From Tistrella mobilis KA081020-065 (lineage in GTDB: Bacteria > Pseudomonadota > Alphaproteobacteria > Tistrellales > Tistrellaceae), in contig NC_017957.2 in the NCBI RefSeq assembly GCF_000264455.2, positions 1-64,000 of the forward strand: 64,000 nt of DNA. Reading direction: 5' to 3'. Every line of letters begins with the position of its first letter. The stretch's first letter is position 1. Positions 5,712-63,257 of the stretch are shown here, piece after piece. The translations under genes and the position numbers were made by a program. The notes under the pieces were generated by a model. That model worked only from the letters and a program-made list of their open reading frames with translations, was not told the origin of the DNA and ran no database searches.

Positions 5712-7493
5712 ATGACCGATCCGATTGCCCTGTCACCGGCCGAGTTGGCCCGGCGCGGCGAGGCGTTCAGCCGGGCCTGGCGGATGAAGGAGGCCTATGC
5801 CGATCTGACGGCGGCGCTGCGGCTGGCGCCCGATGATCCCGAGGCGCGGTATCAGATGGGCCGGCACCATATGCGCAACGGCCATGTCGAGATGGCGTTG
5901 ATCGCCTTTCACGAGCTGCGGCGGCGCACGCCCGGCTACAGGGATGTGGCGGCGCGGTTCGAAATCTGCCTTGGCCGGCTGCGCTTCCCGCCACCCTTCG
6001 ACATCACCGCCGATCTGATCGCGGCGCTGGATACAGGGCAGATCGATGATCTGCAGGCGGCCCGGATCATCGCCCGGGTGCTGACCCGCCGCCACGGGAT
6101 CGCCGCCGACATGGCGCTGGATGACACGCGGATCGCGACCATTACGAGTAATCGGCTATTCCGCCTGTATCTGCGAATGTGCCGCAACATCGACCCGGCG
6201 ATCGAGGCGGTGCTGTGCCGCCTGCGCCGCCGGGCCGCCGGGCTTGAACCGGGCCCCGCCCTGCCGGCGGGATTGCTGGCCGATCTTGCCATCGGCTTCG
6301 CCAATGGCGATTACGTTGTCGACTGGCCGGCCGACGAGGCGGCGGTGGCAGACCGGCTGCGGACCGCTCTGACGGGGGCGGAGGCCGTGGTGCCGGGGGC
6401 TGCCCCCAGCCTGGTGATGACCCTCGCGCTTTACGAGGCACCGCCCGTCGCAGCGGTCGTGCAGATCCGATCCGCGGCTGCGGATGACGACGGTATCGCC
6501 GCCTTCATCACCCGGTTCCACGACGAGCCTCTGGCGCTGGCAGCCGAGCCGGTGGCGACGCTCGGGCGCGCCGAGCCGGCGACCACGGATGCCGTGTCGA
6601 CGCGCGTCCGCCGCCAGTATGAAATGGCGCCCTATCCGCGATGGCGCGGGCTGTCGCCACGGGCGGGCCTGGATTTTCGGGAAACGCTGGCGCGCTCCCT
6701 GCCCCTGGCCGAGCTACCGGCGAGCGTGACCGGGCACCTGCCCGCCCGGCCCGATATCCTCATCGCCGGCTGCGGCACCGGCCGCCATCCGGCCCGCCGG
6801 GCCAGGGCGACCACCTGCGGGTCGCTGCTCGCCATCGATCTCAGCCACGCCAGCCTGGCCTATGCCTCCCTGAAAGCGCGTGAGCTGGGCCTTGCCGACG
6901 AGATCCGCTTTGCCCGCGCCGACATCCTCGACCTGCCGGCACTGTTGCCGTCCGCGAGCTTCGATCTGGTCGAGGCGGCGGGCGTGCTGCACCACATGGA
7001 CGACCCGTTCCGCGGCTGGCAGGTGCTGCGCGATCTGCTCCGCCCCGGCGGCTGGATGCGGATCGGGCTCTACAGCCGCACCGCCCGCCGCCACATCACC
7101 CGGGCGCGGGCCTGGCTGGCCGACCGGAACTGGGGCAAAACCCCTGAAGATATCCGGCGCTTCCGGCGGGAGCTGATCGCCGGCCGGCTGGATCCGGCGC
7201 TGGAGCCACTCGCGGCCTTCGCCGACCTCCACAATCTGCACCACCTGCGCGACCTGCTGTTTCACGAACAGGAACTCACCTTCACGCCAGAGATGATCCG
7301 CGACCACCTGGACCGCCTCGGCCTGACATTTGCAGGCTTCAGCCCCAGCCAGCCCGAAATCCTGTACGCTTATCGCCAGCGTTTCCCCGAAGATCCCACC
7401 GCCACCGATCTCGACCGCTGGGCTGCCTTCGAAGCCGATCATCCGGATGCGTTTCTCGGGATGTATCAGTTCTGGTGTTATGACCCGCATTAA
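5712..7493 (+). CDS. TPR-containing class I SAM-dependent methyltransferase
   Basis: A protein of about 593 residues. The N-terminus has tetratricopeptide-like helices (LTAALRLAPDDPEARYQMG, then MALIAFHELRRRTPGYRDV). The C-terminal half has a Rossmann methyltransferase: motif I ILIAGCGTGRHP near residue 350, acidic loop LLAIDLSHASLAYA, motif DLVEAAGVLHHMDDP and the post-motif LLRPGGWMRIGLYS. I chose ATG 5712; an in-frame ATG at 5622 would add 30 low-complexity residues. The substrate is unknown. It lies about 220 bp upstream of a RiPP-like precursor gene in the same orientation, so peptide tailoring is possible but unproven. TPR-methyltransferases also act on proteins or glycans. Confidence 0.7.
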   Translation: MTDPIALSPAELARRGEAFSRAWRMKEAYADLTAALRLAPDDPEARYQMGRHHMRNGHVEMALIAFHELRRRTPGYRDVAARFEICLGRLRFPPPFDITADLIAALDTGQIDDLQAARIIARVLTRRHGIAADMALDDTRIATITSNRLFRLYLRMCRNIDPAIEAVLCRLRRRAAGLEPGPALPAGLLADLAIGFANGDYVVDWPADEAAVADRLRTALTGAEAVVPGAAPSLVMTLALYEAPPVAAVVQIRSAAADDDGIAAFITRFHDEPLALAAEPVATLGRAEPATTDAVSTRVRRQYEMAPYPRWRGLSPRAGLDFRETLARSLPLAELPASVTGHLPARPDILIAGCGTGRHPARRARATTCGSLLAIDLSHASLAYASLKARELGLADEIRFARADILDLPALLPSASFDLVEAAGVLHHMDDPFRGWQVLRDLLRPGGWMRIGLYSRTARRHITRARAWLADRNWGKTPEDIRRFRRELIAGRLDPALEPLAAFADLHNLHHLRDLLFHEQELTFTPEMIRDHLDRLGLTFAGFSPSQPEILYAYRQRFPEDPTATDLDRWAAFEADHPDAFLGMYQFWCYDPH

Positions 7494-7655: not shown

Positions 7656-7711
7656 CTCCTGCCGGCTCGTCATACTATGGGATTGGCTCATTCAAACCGA
7701 TGGAGATGCCG

Positions 7712-7870
7712 ATGTCCCTGTACCGCCACGAGAGCACCCCCACCCCCGTCAAGGCCGATGCGCTTCGCCCTGCACGCAAGACCTGGCAGCAGCCGGTGCT
7801 GAGTATCGAAGCCCTGAGTGACACCGCCGCCGCCCCGTACACCGTGAGCGACGGCACCATCGCCTCCTGA
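7712..7870 (+). CDS. Putative lasso-type RiPP precursor peptide 1
   Basis: A 52-residue peptide. The leader contains W25-x-x-P28-V-L30, equivalent to the YxxPxL recognition motif of lasso leaders, and Thr38. Taking Thr38 as position -2, the core is AAPYTVSDGTIAS, with Ala1 and Asp8 as possible ring partners and a five-residue tail. I chose ATG 7712, preceded by GGAG with 6-bp spacing; ATG 7700 and 7706 are in frame. It has the same length as precursor 2 (8243-8401) and shares its motif spacing to within one residue, and it resembles precursor 3 in the minus-strand operon at 44-48 kb. No maturation enzymes are adjacent. Short and unmatched to a named family, so the assignment is inference. Confidence 0.6.
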   Translation: MSLYRHESTPTPVKADALRPARKTWQQPVLSIEALSDTAAAPYTVSDGTIAS

Positions 7871-7941: not shown

Positions 7942-8096
7942 GCTTGCCGCTGCCGGCGATTGTCTGCGCCCTTGCCGATCACGGCAGCTTTACCGCGGCG
8001 GTGAATGCCGTGCAGTCAACCCTGACCATGCGGGTGACGGAGCTGGAGGCCGAGCCGGGGTAACCCCTCATCCGCCGCAGCAACGGCGTCATGAGG
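7942..8096 (+). pseudogene. LysR-family regulator remnant (N-terminal fragment)
   Basis: This stretch is a degraded copy of the first 160 bp or so of the lysR gene at 8487. Read in frame it gives ADHGSFTAAVNAV, TMRVTELEAEPG, a TAA stop at 8061-8063, then PLIRRSNGVM. This matches VDHGSFTAAAEAV, TMRVKELEAELGQ and PLFIRRRSGVM of the intact gene, with a 9-bp deletion, a lost Phe codon and the internal stop. The effector-binding domain is absent. Together with the two precursor genes it shows that a precursor-lysR unit was duplicated. Confidence 0.85.
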
Positions 8097-8224: not shown

Positions 8225-8242
8225 ATGGAGATGGAGATGGAG

Positions 8243-8401
8243 ATGTCCCCCGACTGCCACGACAACAGCACCCCTACCAGGACCGGTCCCCTCCTCGCGG
8301 CACGCACGCCCTGGCAGCGGCCGGTACTGAACGTCGAAAACGTGGAAAGTACTGCAGGCACTTTTAGCGGTTCGATCTTCGACGGCAGCTTCACCTCCTG
8401 A
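8243..8401 (+). CDS. Putative lasso-type RiPP precursor peptide 2
   Basis: A 52-residue peptide parallel to precursor 1: W24-x-x-P27-V-L29, Thr37 and a C-terminal Asp47-Gly48. With Thr37 at -2 the core is GTFSGSIFDGSFTS, with Gly1 and Asp9 as a textbook lasso ring pair. The start lies in a triple ATGGAG repeat (8225-8242), so ATG 8225, 8231, 8237 and 8243 are all in frame. I chose 8243, which keeps the GGAG-6-bp spacing seen for precursor 1. The intact lysR gene starts 86 bp downstream. No cyclase or protease is nearby; the enzymes at 44-48 kb are the only candidates in the window. Confidence 0.62.
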   Translation: MSPDCHDNSTPTRTGPLLAARTPWQRPVLNVENVESTAGTFSGSIFDGSFTS

Positions 8402-44142: not shown

Positions 44143-45084
44143 TCAGTGCGAATGCCCGGCCTGGCCGGGCGGGGCCGGATGCAGTTCAAAGGCCACACAG
44201 ATCCGCCGCTGATCACAGCCGAGCGGTACGGTCTCATGCGTGAAATGGCTGGGCATCAGCACCACGAGGCCGGGTTCAGGACGGATCCAGCGCTCCTCCC
44301 AACCTCCAGCCCCGCAACCGGCGGCCGGAAAGCCGCGCCCGGCAGCCGGGCCGACGCGCAGCCAGCCGGGCCGGCCCGCTACATCCGCCACCACCGGCGG
44401 CACCTCGGCGTAATAGACCCCGTTCACCCAGCTGGTGGCATGCAGATGGGGAAGATGGCGGGTTTCCGCCCCCGACACCACGCTCCAGGCCTTGAGGACA
44501 AGCCCGGCCGGCCGGGCGCGCAGGAACGGATTGGCCGGGTCCGCCGGCAGGCGGTCGACATAGTCGCAAGCCACCCGCCACAGCCGGTCGAGCAGACGGC
44601 GCAGCACCGGGCTGTCCGACCGTTCCAGATGGTTGCGGCGCGATCCCATGCGGATGGAGCGGTCGCCGGGCCGGTCATAATGCTCCAGCCCGCTCGCCAA
44701 CTCGGCCACCAGCGGCGCCAGATCGGGATCATCCGGCCCGTGCAGACGGGTGATCGACAGGAACCGCTCGGGGCTGGTCAGCTCCCGGGCGGCCGGGATA
44801 TCGCCCGCCCAGATCGCCGTGGCGGCCAGCAGGTCGAAGCTGCGCGGATTGGCGAAGCCGGCATCGACCAGCGCCCGGACCAGGGGGTAAAGCCGCTCTC
44901 GCGGGCGGGCCCAGATCAACAGGTCGACAAAGGCGCCGAAGGTTTCGAGATTGGGGTCGATCGCCTGGATGTGGCCGCAGAGCGCCGCAGCCGCATCGGC
45001 CCGGCCCTGCACAAGCAGGAAGGCCGCCTGACGGGCCATGGAGGCCAGATCCGGCGCGGCGGTGACGTCCGGGGCGTCGTTCAC
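44143..45084 (-). CDS. TPR-like/2OG-Fe(II) oxygenase of the RiPP operon
   Basis: A 313-residue protein. The N-terminal half is TPR-like (VQGRADAAAALCGHIQA, LLIWARPRERLYPLV). The C-terminal jelly roll has H213-x-H215 in LPHLHATSWVNGVYY, distal H273 in LMPSHFTHETVP and Arg in RRICVAFEL. It is the last gene of the operon, overlapping the PqqD-like gene by 4 bp. It would hydroxylate or otherwise oxidise the peptide made by the operon. The 11116-12300 protein shares the same architecture and motifs, linking this operon to the precursor locus at 7-12 kb. Confidence 0.75.
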   Translation of the reverse strand: MNDAPDVTAAPDLASMARQAAFLLVQGRADAAAALCGHIQAIDPNLETFGAFVDLLIWARPRERLYPLVRALVDAGFANPRSFDLLAATAIWAGDIPAARELTSPERFLSITRLHGPDDPDLAPLVAELASGLEHYDRPGDRSIRMGSRRNHLERSDSPVLRRLLDRLWRVACDYVDRLPADPANPFLRARPAGLVLKAWSVVSGAETRHLPHLHATSWVNGVYYAEVPPVVADVAGRPGWLRVGPAAGRGFPAAGCGAGGWEERWIRPEPGLVVLMPSHFTHETVPLGCDQRRICVAFELHPAPPGQAGHSH

Positions 45085-45365
45085 GTTGCCTCCTTTCGCA
45101 CCAGCCCGTGGGTCAGCATGTCTGCGAGCAGCGCCGCGACATCGCGCCGGATGATGTCGAGCGGCGCGTCATAACGGGCATGCAGCTCGCCACACAGATC
45201 CTCGAACCGCGTCGGGGTCTCCAGCCGCGCCCAGATGGCGGCGCCGATGCTGTCCAGGTTGAAATAGGCGCTGCTCGCCAGATCCATCATCACCACATCG
45301 CCATCGATCTCGGTGGTGAGCGGGTCGGGAGAACGGGTGAAGACGGTCTCAGGGGGGAAGATCAT
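45081..45365 (-). CDS. PqqD-like RiPP recognition element (lasso B1-type)
   Basis: A 94-residue PqqD-family protein. It has DVVMMDLASSAYFNLDSIGAAIW (given here as DVVMMDLASSAYFNL and GAAIWARLE), a segment PTRFEDLCGELHARYD and the C-terminal helix VAALLADMLTHGLV. These are the strands and helices of RiPP recognition elements that bind leader peptides. No pqqA, pqqC or pqqE is nearby, so PQQ synthesis is unlikely. The gene sits between the sulfotransferase-like and 2OG genes with ATGA overlaps on both sides. It would present the precursor to the cyclase. Confidence 0.85.
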   Translation of the reverse strand: MIFPPETVFTRSPDPLTTEIDGDVVMMDLASSAYFNLDSIGAAIWARLETPTRFEDLCGELHARYDAPLDIIRRDVAALLADMLTHGLVRKEAT

Positions 45366-46396
45366 GACGCGGACTGCCTTGCTGCCTGATCGAGGTTGAG
45401 CATTCCGGAACCGCCATGGGCGACGGCCGCCAGCCGCTGCCAGGGCGCGCGCAGGAAACGGTCGCAGAGGTCGTGCATCTCCGGGGTGGCGGCCGCCTGC
45501 TTCTGCGCCCGGTCGTCGCTGAAGGGCCGGCGGCCCCGGCGGCTCCAGGCCTGAAGCCGGGTCGCATCGGCCATCGCCGCCGCCTCGACCGGTGTCGGCG
45601 TGATGCCCAGGCGCGGCAGCAGGCGGGTGATCACCGCATCCGGCAGTTCCGCATAATCCAGGATCAGCCAGCCCGCCGGATCCGCCTCCACCGTCGCCGC
45701 CATGGCGGTGAAGGCGCGGCCCAGGCAGCGGACGATGAATTCGGCATCGCTCAACTCCCGCTGCCGGGCGAGCGCCACCCCCGACAGCAGCGGCGACCAC
45801 ACCGCATCACGCAGCTTCAGCCAGCCCGGTGGCCCGGTCAGGTTCGACACCAGGATTTCCAGCGGATCGCGAATGATCAGCACCCGGTGCATATCCGGAT
45901 GGAGCTGCGCGAACAGATCCTGATCCCGCCAGCTGCGCAGCGACTGCTTCACGACCAGATGCCGTGCCCCGGGCCTGACCCGCTGGCCCAGCGACCGCAG
46001 CGCCGCATCCAGCGCCGCCAGCCGGTCGGCGATGGGCACCAGCGCCCAGAAGGCGCCGCAGATATCGACCACGGCCCCCGGCTCGTCCATCACCTGCAGG
46101 GCATCGATGCAGGACAGCATGCGGGCGGTGAGCGTGGAGCCGCAGCGGGTCAGATGCCAGATCGCAAGCAGCGGCGGCAACACCGGCGCCGTCGGCGCAT
46201 GGTCACGGATCAGCGCAGAGTGCAGCCCCGCCGCGGCCGGATGATCGGCGGGCGGGCGGCCATGCAGACCGAACAACACCTCCTCGACCGGGGCATCGGC
46301 CGCCATCGGCCGCAGCAGGAAGCTGCCACCGCCGGCCGAGGGCACGGCGCGGACGGGCATGCAGATCGGGCCGGTTCCGGCGAGACCTTCAGCCAT
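45362..46396 (-). CDS. Sulfotransferase-like protein of the RiPP operon
   Basis: A 344-residue protein with a sulfotransferase P-loop-like 5'-phosphosulfate motif, HLTRCGSTLTARML (about residue 126), and a 3'-phosphate-binding segment, LIIRDPLEILVSNL. A later WLILDYAELPD fits the family fold. It overlaps the cyclase gene by 8 bp and the PqqD-like gene by 4 bp, so all are translationally coupled. Expected role: sulfate transfer to the peptide (Ser/Thr/Tyr) or another P-loop reaction. It lacks the Cys-His-Asp set of a lasso leader peptidase, so it does not replace the missing protease. Confidence 0.72.
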   Translation of the reverse strand: MAEGLAGTGPICMPVRAVPSAGGGSFLLRPMAADAPVEEVLFGLHGRPPADHPAAAGLHSALIRDHAPTAPVLPPLLAIWHLTRCGSTLTARMLSCIDALQVMDEPGAVVDICGAFWALVPIADRLAALDAALRSLGQRVRPGARHLVVKQSLRSWRDQDLFAQLHPDMHRVLIIRDPLEILVSNLTGPPGWLKLRDAVWSPLLSGVALARQRELSDAEFIVRCLGRAFTAMAATVEADPAGWLILDYAELPDAVITRLLPRLGITPTPVEAAAMADATRLQAWSRRGRRPFSDDRAQKQAAATPEMHDLCDRFLRAPWQRLAAVAHGGSGMLNLDQAARQSAS

Positions 46397-48329
46397 TGCG
46401 GCCTTCCTGCATCAGGATGAACTGCCCCACCCGCAGCGCCTCGCCCAGCCCCTTGCGCAGACGGTGAGAGGTGGGGAAGCGCCCGGCCTCTTCGGCGGTG
46501 GCCGGCCAGGCATCCAGGATCGCGCGCATATGCTGCGTATCCAGAATGGAGCAGGCCAGGGGTGATTGTTCGATCCGGTCGATCTCTGCCGCCATCCAGT
46601 CGCGCCGCCGCCCCATCCAGCCGAACCAGTCGGCATGCTGCAGGCCGATCCGACGCTCATCCAGAATCGGCTGCGGCACGCGGTCTGCCAGGGTGCGGCG
46701 GGCCAGCAGGCGCGGCACCCCGTTGCGGCGAAACTGGTCGCGCGGCAGCGACAGGCAGAACTCCACCAGGCCCAGATCGCAATACGGATCGCGCCAGGAC
46801 CAGGCCATGCCCTGAAAGAGGTGGGCGTATTGGGCGTTGTTCTGGCGGAAATGTTCCAGCAGCCGGATATGGTTGTCGAGATCGGGCGAGCCCGTGCGCA
46901 CGGTCGGCTGATCGTGTTCCGCCAGCCGCAACCGTTCCGCGACTTCTGGCCGGATGCTGCTCCATTCCTGCCACCAATAGTCCCGGCCGCCGCGCAACCG
47001 CCGCGTCAGGCGGCGAATGCCGGGGCCGGCCAGGGGCGCCACCGCCTGACCCCAAAGCGCCCGGGGGCCCCAGAACAGCCGTGGCCGGCCCCGCAATTCC
47101 GGGCGATAGGGAACGAGGTTGCGCCAGGCCGCCAGCGCCCGCCCGCGCCGCAACTGATCGGCCGCCACCCGGCCGCCGGTATAGCTGAGCGTGACATTGC
47201 CCGCATCGCCGCTCAGGACCACGCCGATGTCCTGTTCCCGCACAGTGCGCTCCAAGGGCAACAGCATCCAGGATATCTGATAGGGTCTCTTCACCGGCCA
47301 GTCGCGGCTCTGCAGCGGCCCGCCGGCATATTCCATCGAAAGGTCGGGTTGCCAGGCATCGACCAGATGCGGCGTCAACCCGGGATAGCGGGCCAGGAAA
47401 GGCTGCAGACGCTCCCACTCGTCGGCGAAATGACCGGCATCCGGGGGCAGCTGGGGAACATCGGGATCGGCGCGGATGGTGAGGGTATGGACGGGCGCGT
47501 CATGGCTGCGGGAGGCCGTCGCGGCGACGCCGGGGGAATCCAGCCCTGCCGACAGCAGGCACAGGATGGGTTTGCCGGCAGGGCAGCGCGCGGCGACCGC
47601 CCGGTCCAGATGTTCGCGCGCGGCCTCCACATACTCGGCATCCCGGCGCAGACGCAGTGTGCGCCGCGGCACCGGTGACCAGAAGGGGGCCGTCTGCGTG
47701 GATCCGTCCTGCCATTCCAGATACCAGCCCGGTTGCAGGCGCCGGATGTGGCGCCAGGGGGTGCGGTCGCCGATCCGGCTTTCCATCTTGACCAGCCGGT
47801 AGGCAAGCACCTCGGGGTCCGGTTCCGGATCAACCTCCGGGACGGCCAGCAACCAGCTGGGTCGGCTGGCCGCAACGATGCCGTCGGGCGTGGCGGCATG
47901 GCACAGGCTGTCCCGCCCCATCGGGCAGGCGGCGAGCAGCAGCGAGCGATCGGCGGGCGACCAGCGCACCAGGGTGTAGTCGCCATCCAGCCGGGCGAGC
48001 CCGTCGACGCCCCACCGGTCGAGAAGGGCATCGACCAGCCGCACCGGCGTCAGCGGCGTCGTCCGGTCCAGCCCCAGCTCTCGGGCCAGACCGGCGAGAT
48101 TGTAGATCTCGCCGTTGACCAGCGTCACCGCGCCTGACGGACCCGCCCCGATTGATCGGGGCGCGGGGCGCCGTAGCCGGCCGGTCGGGTTGTCGCGGCC
48201 CAGCCCGACGACGACACCGCCGTCACCCTGGTGAATCCGGTCGATGCGGAAGTCCGACGGGCAGCGGCGGGCCAGATCACGCACCGCGCCACCGGTGCCG
48301 GCCAGAAACCCGGCGCTGCTCTGAACCAT
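46389..48329 (-). CDS. Asparagine-synthetase-like lasso peptide cyclase
   Basis: A 646-residue two-domain protein. The N-terminal glutaminase-like fold (VTLVNGEIYNLAGLARELG, LARLDGDYTLVRW) begins with MVQSS and lacks the catalytic Cys2 of true amidotransferases. The C-terminal domain has the ATP-PPi loop LSAGLDSPGVAA, LSGDAGNVTLSY and RDPYCDLGLVEFCLSLP. This is the McjC-type lasso cyclase layout rather than AsnB. It would activate an Asp side chain and close the macrolactam. It starts 12 bp after a precursor gene and heads a coupled operon. Ala in place of Gly in the SGGLDS loop is a mild deviation. Confidence 0.82.
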   Translation of the reverse strand: MVQSSAGFLAGTGGAVRDLARRCPSDFRIDRIHQGDGGVVVGLGRDNPTGRLRRPAPRSIGAGPSGAVTLVNGEIYNLAGLARELGLDRTTPLTPVRLVDALLDRWGVDGLARLDGDYTLVRWSPADRSLLLAACPMGRDSLCHAATPDGIVAASRPSWLLAVPEVDPEPDPEVLAYRLVKMESRIGDRTPWRHIRRLQPGWYLEWQDGSTQTAPFWSPVPRRTLRLRRDAEYVEAAREHLDRAVAARCPAGKPILCLLSAGLDSPGVAATASRSHDAPVHTLTIRADPDVPQLPPDAGHFADEWERLQPFLARYPGLTPHLVDAWQPDLSMEYAGGPLQSRDWPVKRPYQISWMLLPLERTVREQDIGVVLSGDAGNVTLSYTGGRVAADQLRRGRALAAWRNLVPYRPELRGRPRLFWGPRALWGQAVAPLAGPGIRRLTRRLRGGRDYWWQEWSSIRPEVAERLRLAEHDQPTVRTGSPDLDNHIRLLEHFRQNNAQYAHLFQGMAWSWRDPYCDLGLVEFCLSLPRDQFRRNGVPRLLARRTLADRVPQPILDERRIGLQHADWFGWMGRRRDWMAAEIDRIEQSPLACSILDTQHMRAILDAWPATAEEAGRFPTSHRLRKGLGEALRVGQFILMQEGRNG

Positions 48330-48341
48330 CCTGGCGGCGGG

Positions 48342-48506
48342 TCAGGAATGGGTGGAAATAAAGCCGTCGTCCGAAACATTGCTGATCCCCTGGGTCAGGG
48401 GCGTGGCATTGTAAACGCCCAGAACCGGCGCAGCCCAGGGCAGCAGGTCCGTATTCCGGGGCAGGGCAGGATGCGCCGGAGAGGCGGTCATTTCAGGCTT
48501 GTTCAT
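48342..48506 (-). CDS. Lasso-type RiPP precursor peptide 3
   Basis: A 54-residue peptide. The leader contains W24-x-x-P27-V-L29, the YxxPxL-equivalent recognition motif, and Thr38. With Thr38 at -2 the core is GISNVSDDGFISTHS, with Gly1 and Asp7 or Asp8 as ring partners. An alternative Thr35 would place Asp at position 10 and is less likely. It lies 12 bp upstream of the cyclase gene in the same direction, the standard lasso arrangement. The W/PVL/DG positions are nearly the same as in the peptides at 7712 and 8243. Start ATG 48506. Confidence 0.72.
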   Translation of the reverse strand: MNKPEMTASPAHPALPRNTDLLPWAAPVLGVYNATPLTQGISNVSDDGFISTHS

Positions 48507-60809: not shown

Positions 60810-61082
60810 ATGTCGACCTCTCTCAAGATTGATGACGACCTCGAACGGCGCCTCCACGAGGTGGCAGGCCGCCGCCGTCGCTCCGTCGATGCCGTCACGG
60901 TTGAAGCGATCCGGCAATATGTCGAACGCGAGGAAGCCCGCGACGACTTCCGACGGGAGGCCGAAGTGTCCTGGGCCGCTTATCAGACGGACGGCCTGCA
61001 CCTGACCGGCCAGGAAGTCAGCGATTGGCTGAACAGCTGGGGCGCCGACGGCGAGACGCCGGCGCCGCGGTGCCACAGGTAA
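60810..61082 (+). CDS. CopG/RHH-family antitoxin
   Basis: A 90-residue protein: MSTSLKIDDDLERRLHEVA is a ribbon-helix-helix start, followed by RRRSVDAVTVEAIRQYVERE and a C-terminal tail. ATG 60810 was chosen because the upstream in-frame part belongs to the DUF4276 fragment. The downstream toxin is internally deleted (61071-61207), so the antitoxin is intact but without a working partner here. Confidence 0.78.
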   Translation: MSTSLKIDDDLERRLHEVAGRRRRSVDAVTVEAIRQYVEREEARDDFRREAEVSWAAYQTDGLHLTGQEVSDWLNSWGADGETPAPRCHR

Positions 61083-61207
61083 TCGTCACCAGGAATGCCG
61101 TTCGCGGCATCCAGCGCTGCCAGGCCTTTCTGGCGGCCAAGGCGCCCGATGCTGCTTATGTGCTGGCTTTCCGACACCAGAAGGAAGCCGGCTATCTGTT
61201 GCCTTGA
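61071..61207 (+). pseudogene. RelE/ParE-family toxin with internal deletion
   Basis: The N-terminus VPQVIVTRNAVRGIQRCQAF with LAAKAPDAA is joined directly to the family's C-terminal VLAFRHQKEAGYLLP. The middle (about 35 residues, including the catalytic core strands) is missing. It starts overlapping the antitoxin gene and reads in frame from about 61071. It is therefore a disarmed toxin. Confidence 0.78.
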
Positions 61208-61216
61208 CCACCCGGC

Positions 61217-61819
61217 CCTCACGGAGCCCCCACCTCCCACCCGATCCCATCGCTCCGCCGCCACCCGCCGGAAGCGGTCATGCAGCCGGTCGAAGCTGGC
61301 GGTGTCGCGGGCGACCAGCAGGAAGCCGTCGCCATCGGTCAGCGGCAGCACCACCGCCTCGATCGGGGCACTGAGCGCGGGCGCCGGTTGTGCGATCTCA
61401 GGCCGGCCGGGCGGGCGCCAGGCCAGAAGTTCGGTTTCGAAAAGCAGATCGGCCGTCGCCGTCAGGGTGTCATGATCCGGCATCGGCGCCTCTGCGGGCA
61501 CCAGGATCAAAACCTGTTGCTGCATGCCCCAGCGCGCATTGTCCAGCGCCCCGTCGATCACCGCCGCCGCCGGGCCGGTGGCAAAGATCAGCCGCCGGGT
61601 CAGCCAATAGCGGATCCGGGCGCGGAGTGTCGCGCAATAGGCCGGGTCGATCCAGAATACCGCCCGCCCCTCCCCGGTCACCGCCTCGGCCAGCCAGGCC
61701 GCCAGTTCCGGCGTCGGCTGGGCATCCACCGGCGGCGGTTCGGTCGAAAACGCCACCCGCATGCTCCGGCCATCGGGCCGGACGGGGTCGGCGATCAGAC
61801 GGTTGCTGGGCGTGGTCAC
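61217..61819 (-). CDS. Unknown protein B1 (paralogue of 62658-63257), frameshifted 3' end
   Basis: The first about 190 residues match its paralogue: LIADPVRPDGRSMRVAFSTE, then PELAAWLAEAVTGE, WGMQQQVLILVP and LPLTDGDGFLLVARDTASFD. The middle (about 49-95) has diverged. Near 61254 one extra base relative to the paralogue shifts the frame, so the ORF misses its stop and reads on through antisense of the RelE/CopG region to 60983. The homologous 3' end is near 61217. ATGA overlap with the upstream gene couples the two. The role is unknown; a partner or immunity role is possible. Confidence 0.62.
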
Positions 61820-62657: not shown

Positions 62658-63257
62658 TCACAAGGTCGCCACCTCCCAGCCGATGCCATGCTCCGCCGCC
62701 ACCCGCCGGAAGCGGTCATACAGCCGGTCGAAGCTGGCGGTGTCGCGGGCGACCAGCAGGAAGCCGTCGCCATCGGTCAGCGGCAGCACCACCGCCTCGA
62801 TCGGGGCACTGAGCGCGGGCGCCGGTTGTGCGATCTCGGGCCGGCCGGGCGGGCGCCAGGCCAGAAGTTCGGTTTCGAACAGCAGATCGGCCGTCGCCGT
62901 CAGGGTGTTGTGATCCGGTATCGGCTCGGCCGCCGGCACCAGGATCAATACCTGTTGCTGCATACCCCAGACCCCGCCGAACGCCTCTACGGCCAGCTCT
63001 GCGGCCTCATCCGTCACCCGAAAGGCCACCGCCCGGGTGATCCGGCGTTTCAGGCGCGCAATCAGGCCCGGCGGAGGGTCATGATCGATCCAGACCACCT
63101 GCCAGTATCCGCCGGTCACTGCCTCTGTCAGCCAGGCCGCCAGTTCCGGCGTCGGCTGGGCATCCACCGGCGGCGGTTCGGTGGAGAAGGCGACCCGCAC
63201 GCTCCGGCCATCGGGCCGGACCGGATCGGCGATCAGGCAATTGCGGGCGGTCGTCAC
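62658..63257 (-). CDS. Unknown protein B2 (intact paralogue of B1)
   Basis: A 199-residue protein with the same ends as B1 (LIADPVRPDGRSVRVAFSTE; WGMQQQVLILVP; LLARDTASFD-like FLLVARDTASFDRLYDRF) and its own normal C-terminus (AAEHGIGWEVATL). The middle third (YWQVVWIDHDPPPGLIARLK region) differs strongly from B1. Such conserved ends with a variable core are common in specificity partners such as immunity proteins. It is coupled by ATGA to A2. No recognised domain. Confidence 0.65.
   Translation of the reverse strand: MTTARNCLIADPVRPDGRSVRVAFSTEPPPVDAQPTPELAAWLTEAVTGGYWQVVWIDHDPPPGLIARLKRRITRAVAFRVTDEAAELAVEAFGGVWGMQQQVLILVPAAEPIPDHNTLTATADLLFETELLAWRPPGRPEIAQPAPALSAPIEAVVLPLTDGDGFLLVARDTASFDRLYDRFRRVAAEHGIGWEVATL

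Follow-up and report, generated by a model that had tools for sequence, protein, structure and literature searches.

A lasso-type operon of Tistrella mobilis with an unlinked candidate leader peptidase and dispersed precursor genes

The first 64,000 nucleotides of contig NC_017957.2 of Tistrella mobilis KA081020-065 (hereafter "the window") carry a five-gene operon that encodes a lasso-type precursor, an asparagine-synthetase-like protein that is a candidate lasso cyclase (C protein), a sulfotransferase-like protein, a PqqD-type leader-recognition protein (B1) and a 2-oxoglutarate (2OG)-Fe(II) oxygenase (Table 1). The precursor and cyclase genes are separated by 12 bp, and the genes that follow overlap by 8, 4 and 4 bp. 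A preliminary description of this DNA had proposed that the five genes form one coupled operon and that the window lacks the leader peptidase (B2) of lasso pathways. Both statements were borne out: the coordinates, the common minus strand and the spacing agree with a single operon, and no match to the B2 family PF13471 was present on the window's contig.

Table 1. Features of the operon and of the two orphan precursors in the window.
Feature	Position	Strand	Remarks
Lasso-type precursor, 54 aa	48342..48506	-	leader ...LLPWAAPVLGVYNATPLTQ, predicted core GISNVSDDGFISTHS
Lasso cyclase candidate (asparagine-synthetase-like C protein)	46389..48329	-	PF00733
Sulfotransferase-like tailoring protein	45362..46396	-	PF13469, below cut-off
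B1 / PqqD-type leader-recognition protein	45081..45365	-	PF05402
2OG-Fe(II) oxygenase, GTG start	44143..45084	-	PF13759
Lasso-type precursor, 56 aa, core AAPYTVSDGTIAS	7700..7870	+	no adjoining lasso enzyme
Lasso-type precursor, 58 aa, core GTFSGSIFDGSFTS	8225..8401	+	G058 counterpart: last 22 leader residues identical, core different
TPR-methyltransferase beside both orphan precursors	5712..7493	+	Methyltransf_11 (E 1.6e-15) + TPR

The operon recurs in three other genomes, and this conservation argues that it is real. It was found through its sulfotransferase gene in at least four of 385 genomes (the strong ones among 11 matches); the 385 are a sample of the class, taken from a larger group, and the best five candidates per genome were scored in this search. 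Between the operon versions of different genomes, the ratio of nonsynonymous to synonymous substitution rates (dN/dS) was 0.13–0.33 for the cyclase, sulfotransferase and oxygenase genes and 0.35–0.66 for the PqqD gene. The fourth operon-bearing genome (G096) belongs to a different family, and a family-level search around it, which covered two genomes, gave no additional operon. In G096, the operon's sulfotransferase and PqqD genes have between them an HPr-kinase-like gene (L057:9137-10039) that is read from the opposite strand; it matches one from the T. mobilis genome at 35%. A scan for promoters and terminators gave nothing convincing.

The PqqD protein matched PF05402 with 61.2 bits (cut-off 23.4) and the lasso PqqD model NF033536 with an E-value of 3.3e-15 (56 bits; cut-off 80). 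Its best match among solved structures was the lasso B1 protein TbiB1 (5v1u; E 2.4e-8), followed by 9x90, which is named a lasso PqqD chaperone (E 2.1e-6), and more weakly by TfuB1 (E 0.014); we assign it as the B1 recognition protein of a lasso pathway. The cyclase matched PF00733 (Asn_synthase) with 90.6 bits (cut-off 21) and carries the sequence LSAGLDS, which we take to be the ATP-binding motif. When the contigs of the genomes were scanned with a four-row cyclase alignment, one irrelevant locus was found, at 26% identity. The oxygenase was assigned to its family from a score of 54.6 bits against PF13759 (2OG-FeII_Oxy_5; cut-off 27) together with residues H213, H215, H283, R293 and R294, which are invariant in all three versions; a profile search of solved structures returned no useful relative for it. 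Among the 14 proteins in the alignment of the sulfotransferase-like protein, 11 match Sulfotransfer_3 at E ≤ 0.01 (best 2.1e-7). All 14 share R84–T88 (RCGST) as well as R176, E180 and S184 (R...E...S), sequences that presumably resemble the 5' and 3' phosphate-binding motifs by which sulfotransferases bind 3'-phosphoadenosine 5'-phosphosulfate (PAPS). A relative with 36% identity to this protein (L073:5870-6907, NZ_CP039640.1) is annotated as an aspartyl/asparaginyl beta-hydroxylase, had no Pfam match at E ≤ 0.01, and is perhaps mis-annotated.

The operon precursor looks like a classical lasso precursor, with a W..P.L leader, Thr at position -2, Gly1, Asp8 and a C-terminal Ser. The four species versions differ at ring positions 2–7 and agree throughout in G1, D8 and the terminal THS (the cores of the counterparts in the other three genomes are GGGDQSSDGFINTHS, GGGNNSSDGIINTHS and GTGNQSTDGFVNTHS), so that a residue-1 amine donor and an Asp/Glu acceptor at positions 7–9 are provided in every version. 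All 11 aligned precursors, namely the four operon versions and seven further ones, share W(-16), P(-13), L(-11) and T(-2). According to PMC10368454, T(-2) and YxxPxL are recognition elements of lasso precursors; relative to that rule, the operon leader has W in place of Y, and its spacing falls one residue short of the -17 to -12 given there. The leader motif and Thr(-2) of a lasso precursor are thus both recognizable. A first search pattern (W..P.L and, after eight residues, T, followed by any residue and a small residue, with an acid seven positions further on) matched 10 times in 697,984 bases that comprised the window and the loci (39 sources, picked for lasso matches). All 10 matches were at lasso loci with a stop codon 30–33 residues past the Trp, and nine ended in Ser, though the pattern makes no demand for Ser; ten random sets of equal length gave 0, 0, 0, 0, 1, 0, 0, 0, 0 and 0 matches. 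A C-terminal Ser is present in all seven precursors of this operon (operon A) and of a second one described below (operon B).

For the missing peptidase, the preliminary description had left three options: that B2 is encoded elsewhere, that another protease replaces it, or that the product is not a classical lasso peptide. A search of the full genome (6.5 Mb, five contigs) gave one PF13471 gene, on contig C3 and not on the window's contig. This gene scored 73.4 bits against the lasso model NF033537 (cut-off 33), so that the genome does contain a lasso-pathway B2, although not inside the cluster, as the canonical arrangement of A, B and C genes at a single locus would have it. We rejected the idea that a B2 gene had been overlooked by the model, since PF13471 and NF033537 both gave one and the same gene. 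The first of the three options is therefore favored, and the third became less likely in view of the lasso marks in four versions of the precursor. The lone B2 gene is flanked by an isopropylmalate-synthase-like gene (from a Pfam match on the neighbor in genome G001) and a histidine-kinase-like gene (a frame read by eye), and no lasso gene was found in the 13–16 kb read around it. G001, of the same genus, and G058, rated the same species, have one B2 each, likewise isolated; these counts in genus genomes rest on full scoring. The protein is 93–96% identical across the three genus genomes with a dN/dS of 0.09–0.12, below that of every operon gene, and all seven B2 proteins compared have Cys104 and His140. 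A profile search of solved structures returned no relative for B2.

We consider it rather probable that the product of the operon is a lasso peptide whose leader is removed by a peptidase encoded at an unlinked place, which would be the single B2 of the genome. The second option, removal of the leader by a general or unrelated cell protease, with the lone B2 serving something else, has precedents in lanthipeptides that are matured by unclustered proteases (PMC8960859; PMC10885120) and, to judge from a title in reference lists, in pseudomycoidin, made without a leader and leader peptidase. We regard this as unlikely for the operon: none of the 11 precursors lacks Thr(-2), a residue linked in PMC10885120 to a model of the leader with B1 and B2, and the lone B2 is under strong purifying selection, while the DNA read around it shows no other obvious partner.

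The assignment to the lone B2 was set against the linkage of B2 genes in other genomes. PF13471 matched at E ≤ 0.001 in 35 of the 385 sampled genomes and above the cut-off in 33 (best 11 candidates per genome). These 33 genomes together have 40 B2 genes, of which 29 are no more than 10 kb away from an Asn_synthase gene. We defined cyclase-type genes as PF00733 matches that score up to about 120 bits and span 500 bases or more, a cut chosen after the list was seen, which drops some lasso cyclases (such as a 140-bit one beside B2 in G146) and takes in possible non-lasso proteins (such as C3:146k). By this count, none of 20 cyclase-type genes in the three genus genomes has a B2 within 15 kb, compared to 27 of 39 in 26 other B2-bearing genomes; the Fisher p of 1e-7 is not to be taken at face value, because related genomes are counted as independent. 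The preliminary description had suggested comparing the operon across genomes, and had named a B2 gene immediately outside the region in close relatives as grounds for abandoning its view. The operon lacks a local B2 in all four genomes that carry it, and no such flanking gene was found in the three relatives. In G096, three B2 genes lie in other places, two of them adjoining a cyclase, and in a distant Azospirillum cluster (sulfotransferase 36% and cyclase 32% identical) B2 lies about 5 kb from the cyclase.

A profile built on 11 precursors gave further weak matches that, when read, revealed a family of precursors scattered over the T. mobilis genome. Contigs C2 (692 kb) and C3 (690 kb) were read whole, and C1 by eight 20-kb samples. 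A strict pattern, consisting of the precursor pattern plus a terminal Ser, matched 12 times in C2, twice in C3 and not at all in the C1 sample, whereas ten random 692-kb sets gave one match once and none nine times. The patterns were written after examples had been seen, and seven of the 14 strict matches in C2 and C3 were already known, while seven were new. In total, at least 17 strict lasso-type precursors were found in the genome (C2, C3, the samples, and loci at known clusters), a lower bound because C2 and C3 were the contigs read whole. Three of the 17 are within 5 kb of an Asn_synthase gene and the other 14 are 34.8–876 kb away (measured start to start to ten Asn_synthase places; the weak C4:652713 was omitted, which altered no precursor's result, and the list of distances has 18 entries, the 17 strict matches and one relaxed match). 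One weak profile match, C2:337666, was dropped because it lacked the core pattern.

To lessen the circularity, C2 and C3 were also scanned for the leader motif only, with no demand on the core or the C-terminus. This gave 18 matches, of which 13 end in Ser and 12 have Asp-Gly near the end. In six random sets the counts were 2, 4, 6, 5, 4 and 4, with a Ser end in two of the 25 and Asp-Gly in one, and the real sequence reversed gave one match. Five of the 18 matches look like background, in line with the prediction from the random sets. A match in the 160-kb C1 sample was discarded, since it had neither Ser nor Asp-Gly. In 100 kb of the Azospirillum plasmid next to the cluster there was one match, without Ser, and in eight loci from other genomes there was none, but these are too small a sample for the dispersal to be assigned to the genus alone. 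When two precursors were compared with plasmids by tblastn, one of them had a single match at chance level (E 7) and the other had none. In 13 pairs of orthologs or close paralogs, identity is 88% over the last 22 leader residues (252/286) and 63% over the cores (120/189); the pairs were hand-picked and are not independent, and one of them shows no difference at all. A dispersed system of the prochlorosin kind is marked by many precursors far from the enzymes, with a conserved leader and a variable core, and the precursors described here show these features.

Six strict precursors and one relaxed match form an array (L121 and L087; G000 C2:467034-476184), some of them beside a GDSL hydrolase and an MBOAT acyltransferase, and G001 has three strict precursors in a similar array, beside frames of equal lengths. 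Genes near orphan precursors include a TPR-methyltransferase, the GDSL hydrolase with the MBOAT acyltransferase, a PhyH oxygenase, phage-tail-collar proteins and, in G001, a pair of HPr-kinase-like (below cut-off) and Sulfotransfer_1 genes. Judging from these neighborhoods, a shared core of B2, few B1 proteins and cyclases is likely combined with local tailoring genes. In this genus, lasso-type precursors also lie near PqqD and GNAT genes and/or phage-tail-collar (PF07484) proteins, and an Azospirillum lasso cluster likewise holds collar-type genes and a GNAT gene (loci L030:6381-10072, L098:3507-4040 and L073:11930-13626).

Two orphan precursors lie in the window itself (Table 1), with the closest B1 gene at a distance of about 37 kb and the closest cyclase gene at about 38 kb; the TPR-methyltransferase next to them is a possible tailoring enzyme. 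The second of them and its G058 counterpart have 6 of 14 core positions in common. Between the G058 counterparts of both precursors there is a 6.4-kb cassette (L095:342-6770) with a B1 (PqqD) gene, a cyclase, two 2OG oxygenases and another precursor, which is missing from the T. mobilis genome (window 8070-8080). The orphan precursors of the window are still open despite its absence, which fits retention by service in trans or a recent loss. The missing cassette also speaks for a reading by which the operon and the orphan precursors are decaying remnants that have lost their local B2 genes and make little product. We hold such decay to be very improbable: the operon genes and B2 are all open with dN/dS well under 1, the orphan precursors are likewise open with conserved leaders, and a local B2 is missing from all four operon genomes rather than patchily.

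The genome contains further lasso-type operons. The second (operon B; C4:199-202 kb) consists of a cyclase, a precursor and a sulfotransferase, and both B1 and B2 are missing from the stretches that were read in each of three genomes; in T. mobilis KA081020-065 the nearest B1 is 815 kb off. An operon devoid of both suggests that sharing in trans may be routine. In the third (C4:1014-1020 kb), a sulfotransferase-like gene (32% identical) is accompanied by two PqqD genes and by genes for a 2OG oxygenase and a JmjC protein, so that a sulfotransferase and an oxygenase are paired at least twice in this genome. The fourth (C1:3722-3728 kb) has cyclase and PqqD matches with an HPr-kinase-like gene and P450-like frames (frames read by eye). 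A 663-aa protein with no Pfam match at E ≤ 0.01 (L027:5430-7421) is encoded in a cluster with a cyclase, PqqD, and P450-like and HPr-kinase-like frames, the latter two read by eye. Clusters C1:2680k and C2:648k were rejected as lasso loci, as the neighboring small open reading frames listed there read WIxPExxxLN and have no Thr(-2) core. The small WIxPExxxLN frames without a Thr(-2) lasso core that lie beside PqqD and cyclase genes at L024:11066-11257 and L025:7267-7413 perhaps represent a different type of ribosomally synthesized and post-translationally modified peptide (RiPP). At the far end of the window, two similar frames (60983-61819 and 62658-63257) begin VTT..N.LIADPVRPDGRS.RVAFSTEPPPVDAQPTPELA, which suggests a duplication.

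In the pathway that we propose, with functions predicted from sequence, the operon's PqqD protein (B1) would bind the precursor via its W..P.L leader, the lone B2, encoded on the other contig, would cut the leader one residue past Thr(-2), and the cyclase would bond the new N-terminus, Gly1, to Asp8. The sulfotransferase-like protein would probably sulfate the C-terminal Ser, and the oxygenase would probably hydroxylate a conserved tail residue; the A-type tail keeps T13 and H14 in all versions, and no oxygenase was found in the stretch read of operon B, whose tail is different. In pathways of the paeninodin type, an HPr-kinase-like enzyme phosphorylates the C-terminal Ser of the linear precursor (PMC9266682; PMC8498205), and by analogy a sulfotransferase in the place of the kinase, together with the retained Ser, suggests that Ser might be sulfated before threading. 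The lone B2 would also serve the genome's other lasso-type operons and probably many of the orphan precursors with the same leader motif.

Several observations weigh against this pathway. The cyclase scored 93.4 bits against the lasso-cyclase model NF033535 (E 1.3e-26; cut-off 525), less than its 107.3 bits against the asparagine synthase model TIGR01536 (cut-off 267.1), and many orphan cores begin with E, I, F, T or N, starts that to our knowledge are unusual for lasso peptides. The sulfotransferase-like protein reached 23.1 bits against PF13469 (Sulfotransfer_3), for which the cut-off is 27; a profile search of solved structures gave no relative of it, and its single-sequence fold, with a predicted local distance difference test (pLDDT) score of 47.8, was unusable. 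For B2, no position in the alignment could be assigned to the third catalytic residue, which is Asp in McjB. Eleven of the 40 B2 genes had no PF00733 match within 10 kb (one had a match at 11 kb); a distant B2 thus occurs in other genomes too, and distance by itself is not unique, whereas one lone B2 for many cyclases is unusual. Finally, the link between the lone B2 and the operon peptide is drawn from sequence. The divergent cyclase and the unusual starts of the orphan cores would suit a product that is not a lasso peptide but another isopeptide or macrolactam RiPP from the same enzyme families. This we consider quite unlikely, as the A-type precursors obey the lasso rules of PMC10368454 in leader motif, T(-2), G1 and D8, and the operon's B1 is closest to a lasso B1 structure.

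The proposed lasso pathway has counterparts among known systems. It shares with the paeninodin or ThcoK-SyanK type a separate B1, an asparagine-synthetase-like cyclase, a clustered tailoring enzyme and a retained C-terminal Ser (PMC9266682, PMC8498205), and differs from it in the lack of a B2 in the operon, a sulfotransferase-like protein instead of the kinase, an added 2OG oxygenase, and precursors elsewhere without local enzymes. Some Firmicutes lasso clusters also hold a putative sulfotransferase gene (Zhu et al. 2016, cited in PMC8498205), so the presence of such a gene alone is not new; there, however, it flanks the essential machinery including B2, and section 8 of PMC8498205 reports no function for it. 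Canucin A is likewise tailored by a 2-oxoglutarate oxygenase, CanE (PMC9266682), which hydroxylates a C-terminal Asp, whereas the tail here ends in THS. The unclustered lanthipeptide proteases (PMC8960859) also act on leaders from off the cluster, but they concern another peptide class and other protease families, and here the pathway-specific B2 itself would be the unlinked component. The cluster on plasmid p1 of Azospirillum sp. TSH100 resembles the operon in its PqqD, sulfotransferase-like (36%) and cyclase (32%) genes and its lasso-type precursor, but there B2 and additional tailoring genes are gathered in a space of about 10 kb.

Neither a sulfated lasso peptide nor a B2 shared in trans nor a dispersed family of lasso precursors was found in the open-licence literature that we searched; within that literature, the predicted sulfation and hydroxylation on one lasso peptide would be a new tailoring combination. 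A B2 encoded elsewhere is an ordinary first answer to the missing peptidase, but its context would be extraordinary, a dispersed lasso system with one B2. We see about even chances that this is a combinatorial, genus-wide system. In it, short precursors (at least 17 in this genome, perhaps dozens) would be spread over several contigs, many of them close to a likely tailoring gene though not to a cyclase or protease. They would have their recognition leader in common while their cores change fast, and all would be cut by a single B2 acting in trans and closed by a few shared cyclases and B1 proteins, which would make the system a lasso counterpart of the prochlorosins. The prochlorosins have many precursors with like leaders and variable cores that are not beside the modifying enzyme; the system here differs in its lasso-type enzymes, its several cyclases rather than one synthetase, and its single protease. 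Lasso genome mining seeks a precursor, protease and cyclase side by side, and would thus miss most of the precursors described here and could drop the operon for being incomplete. Should one B2 and a few cyclases indeed handle many cores in trans, these enzymes would be naturally tolerant, as peptide engineers want, and the specificity of leader recognition among co-resident lasso pathways would be directly testable in one organism.

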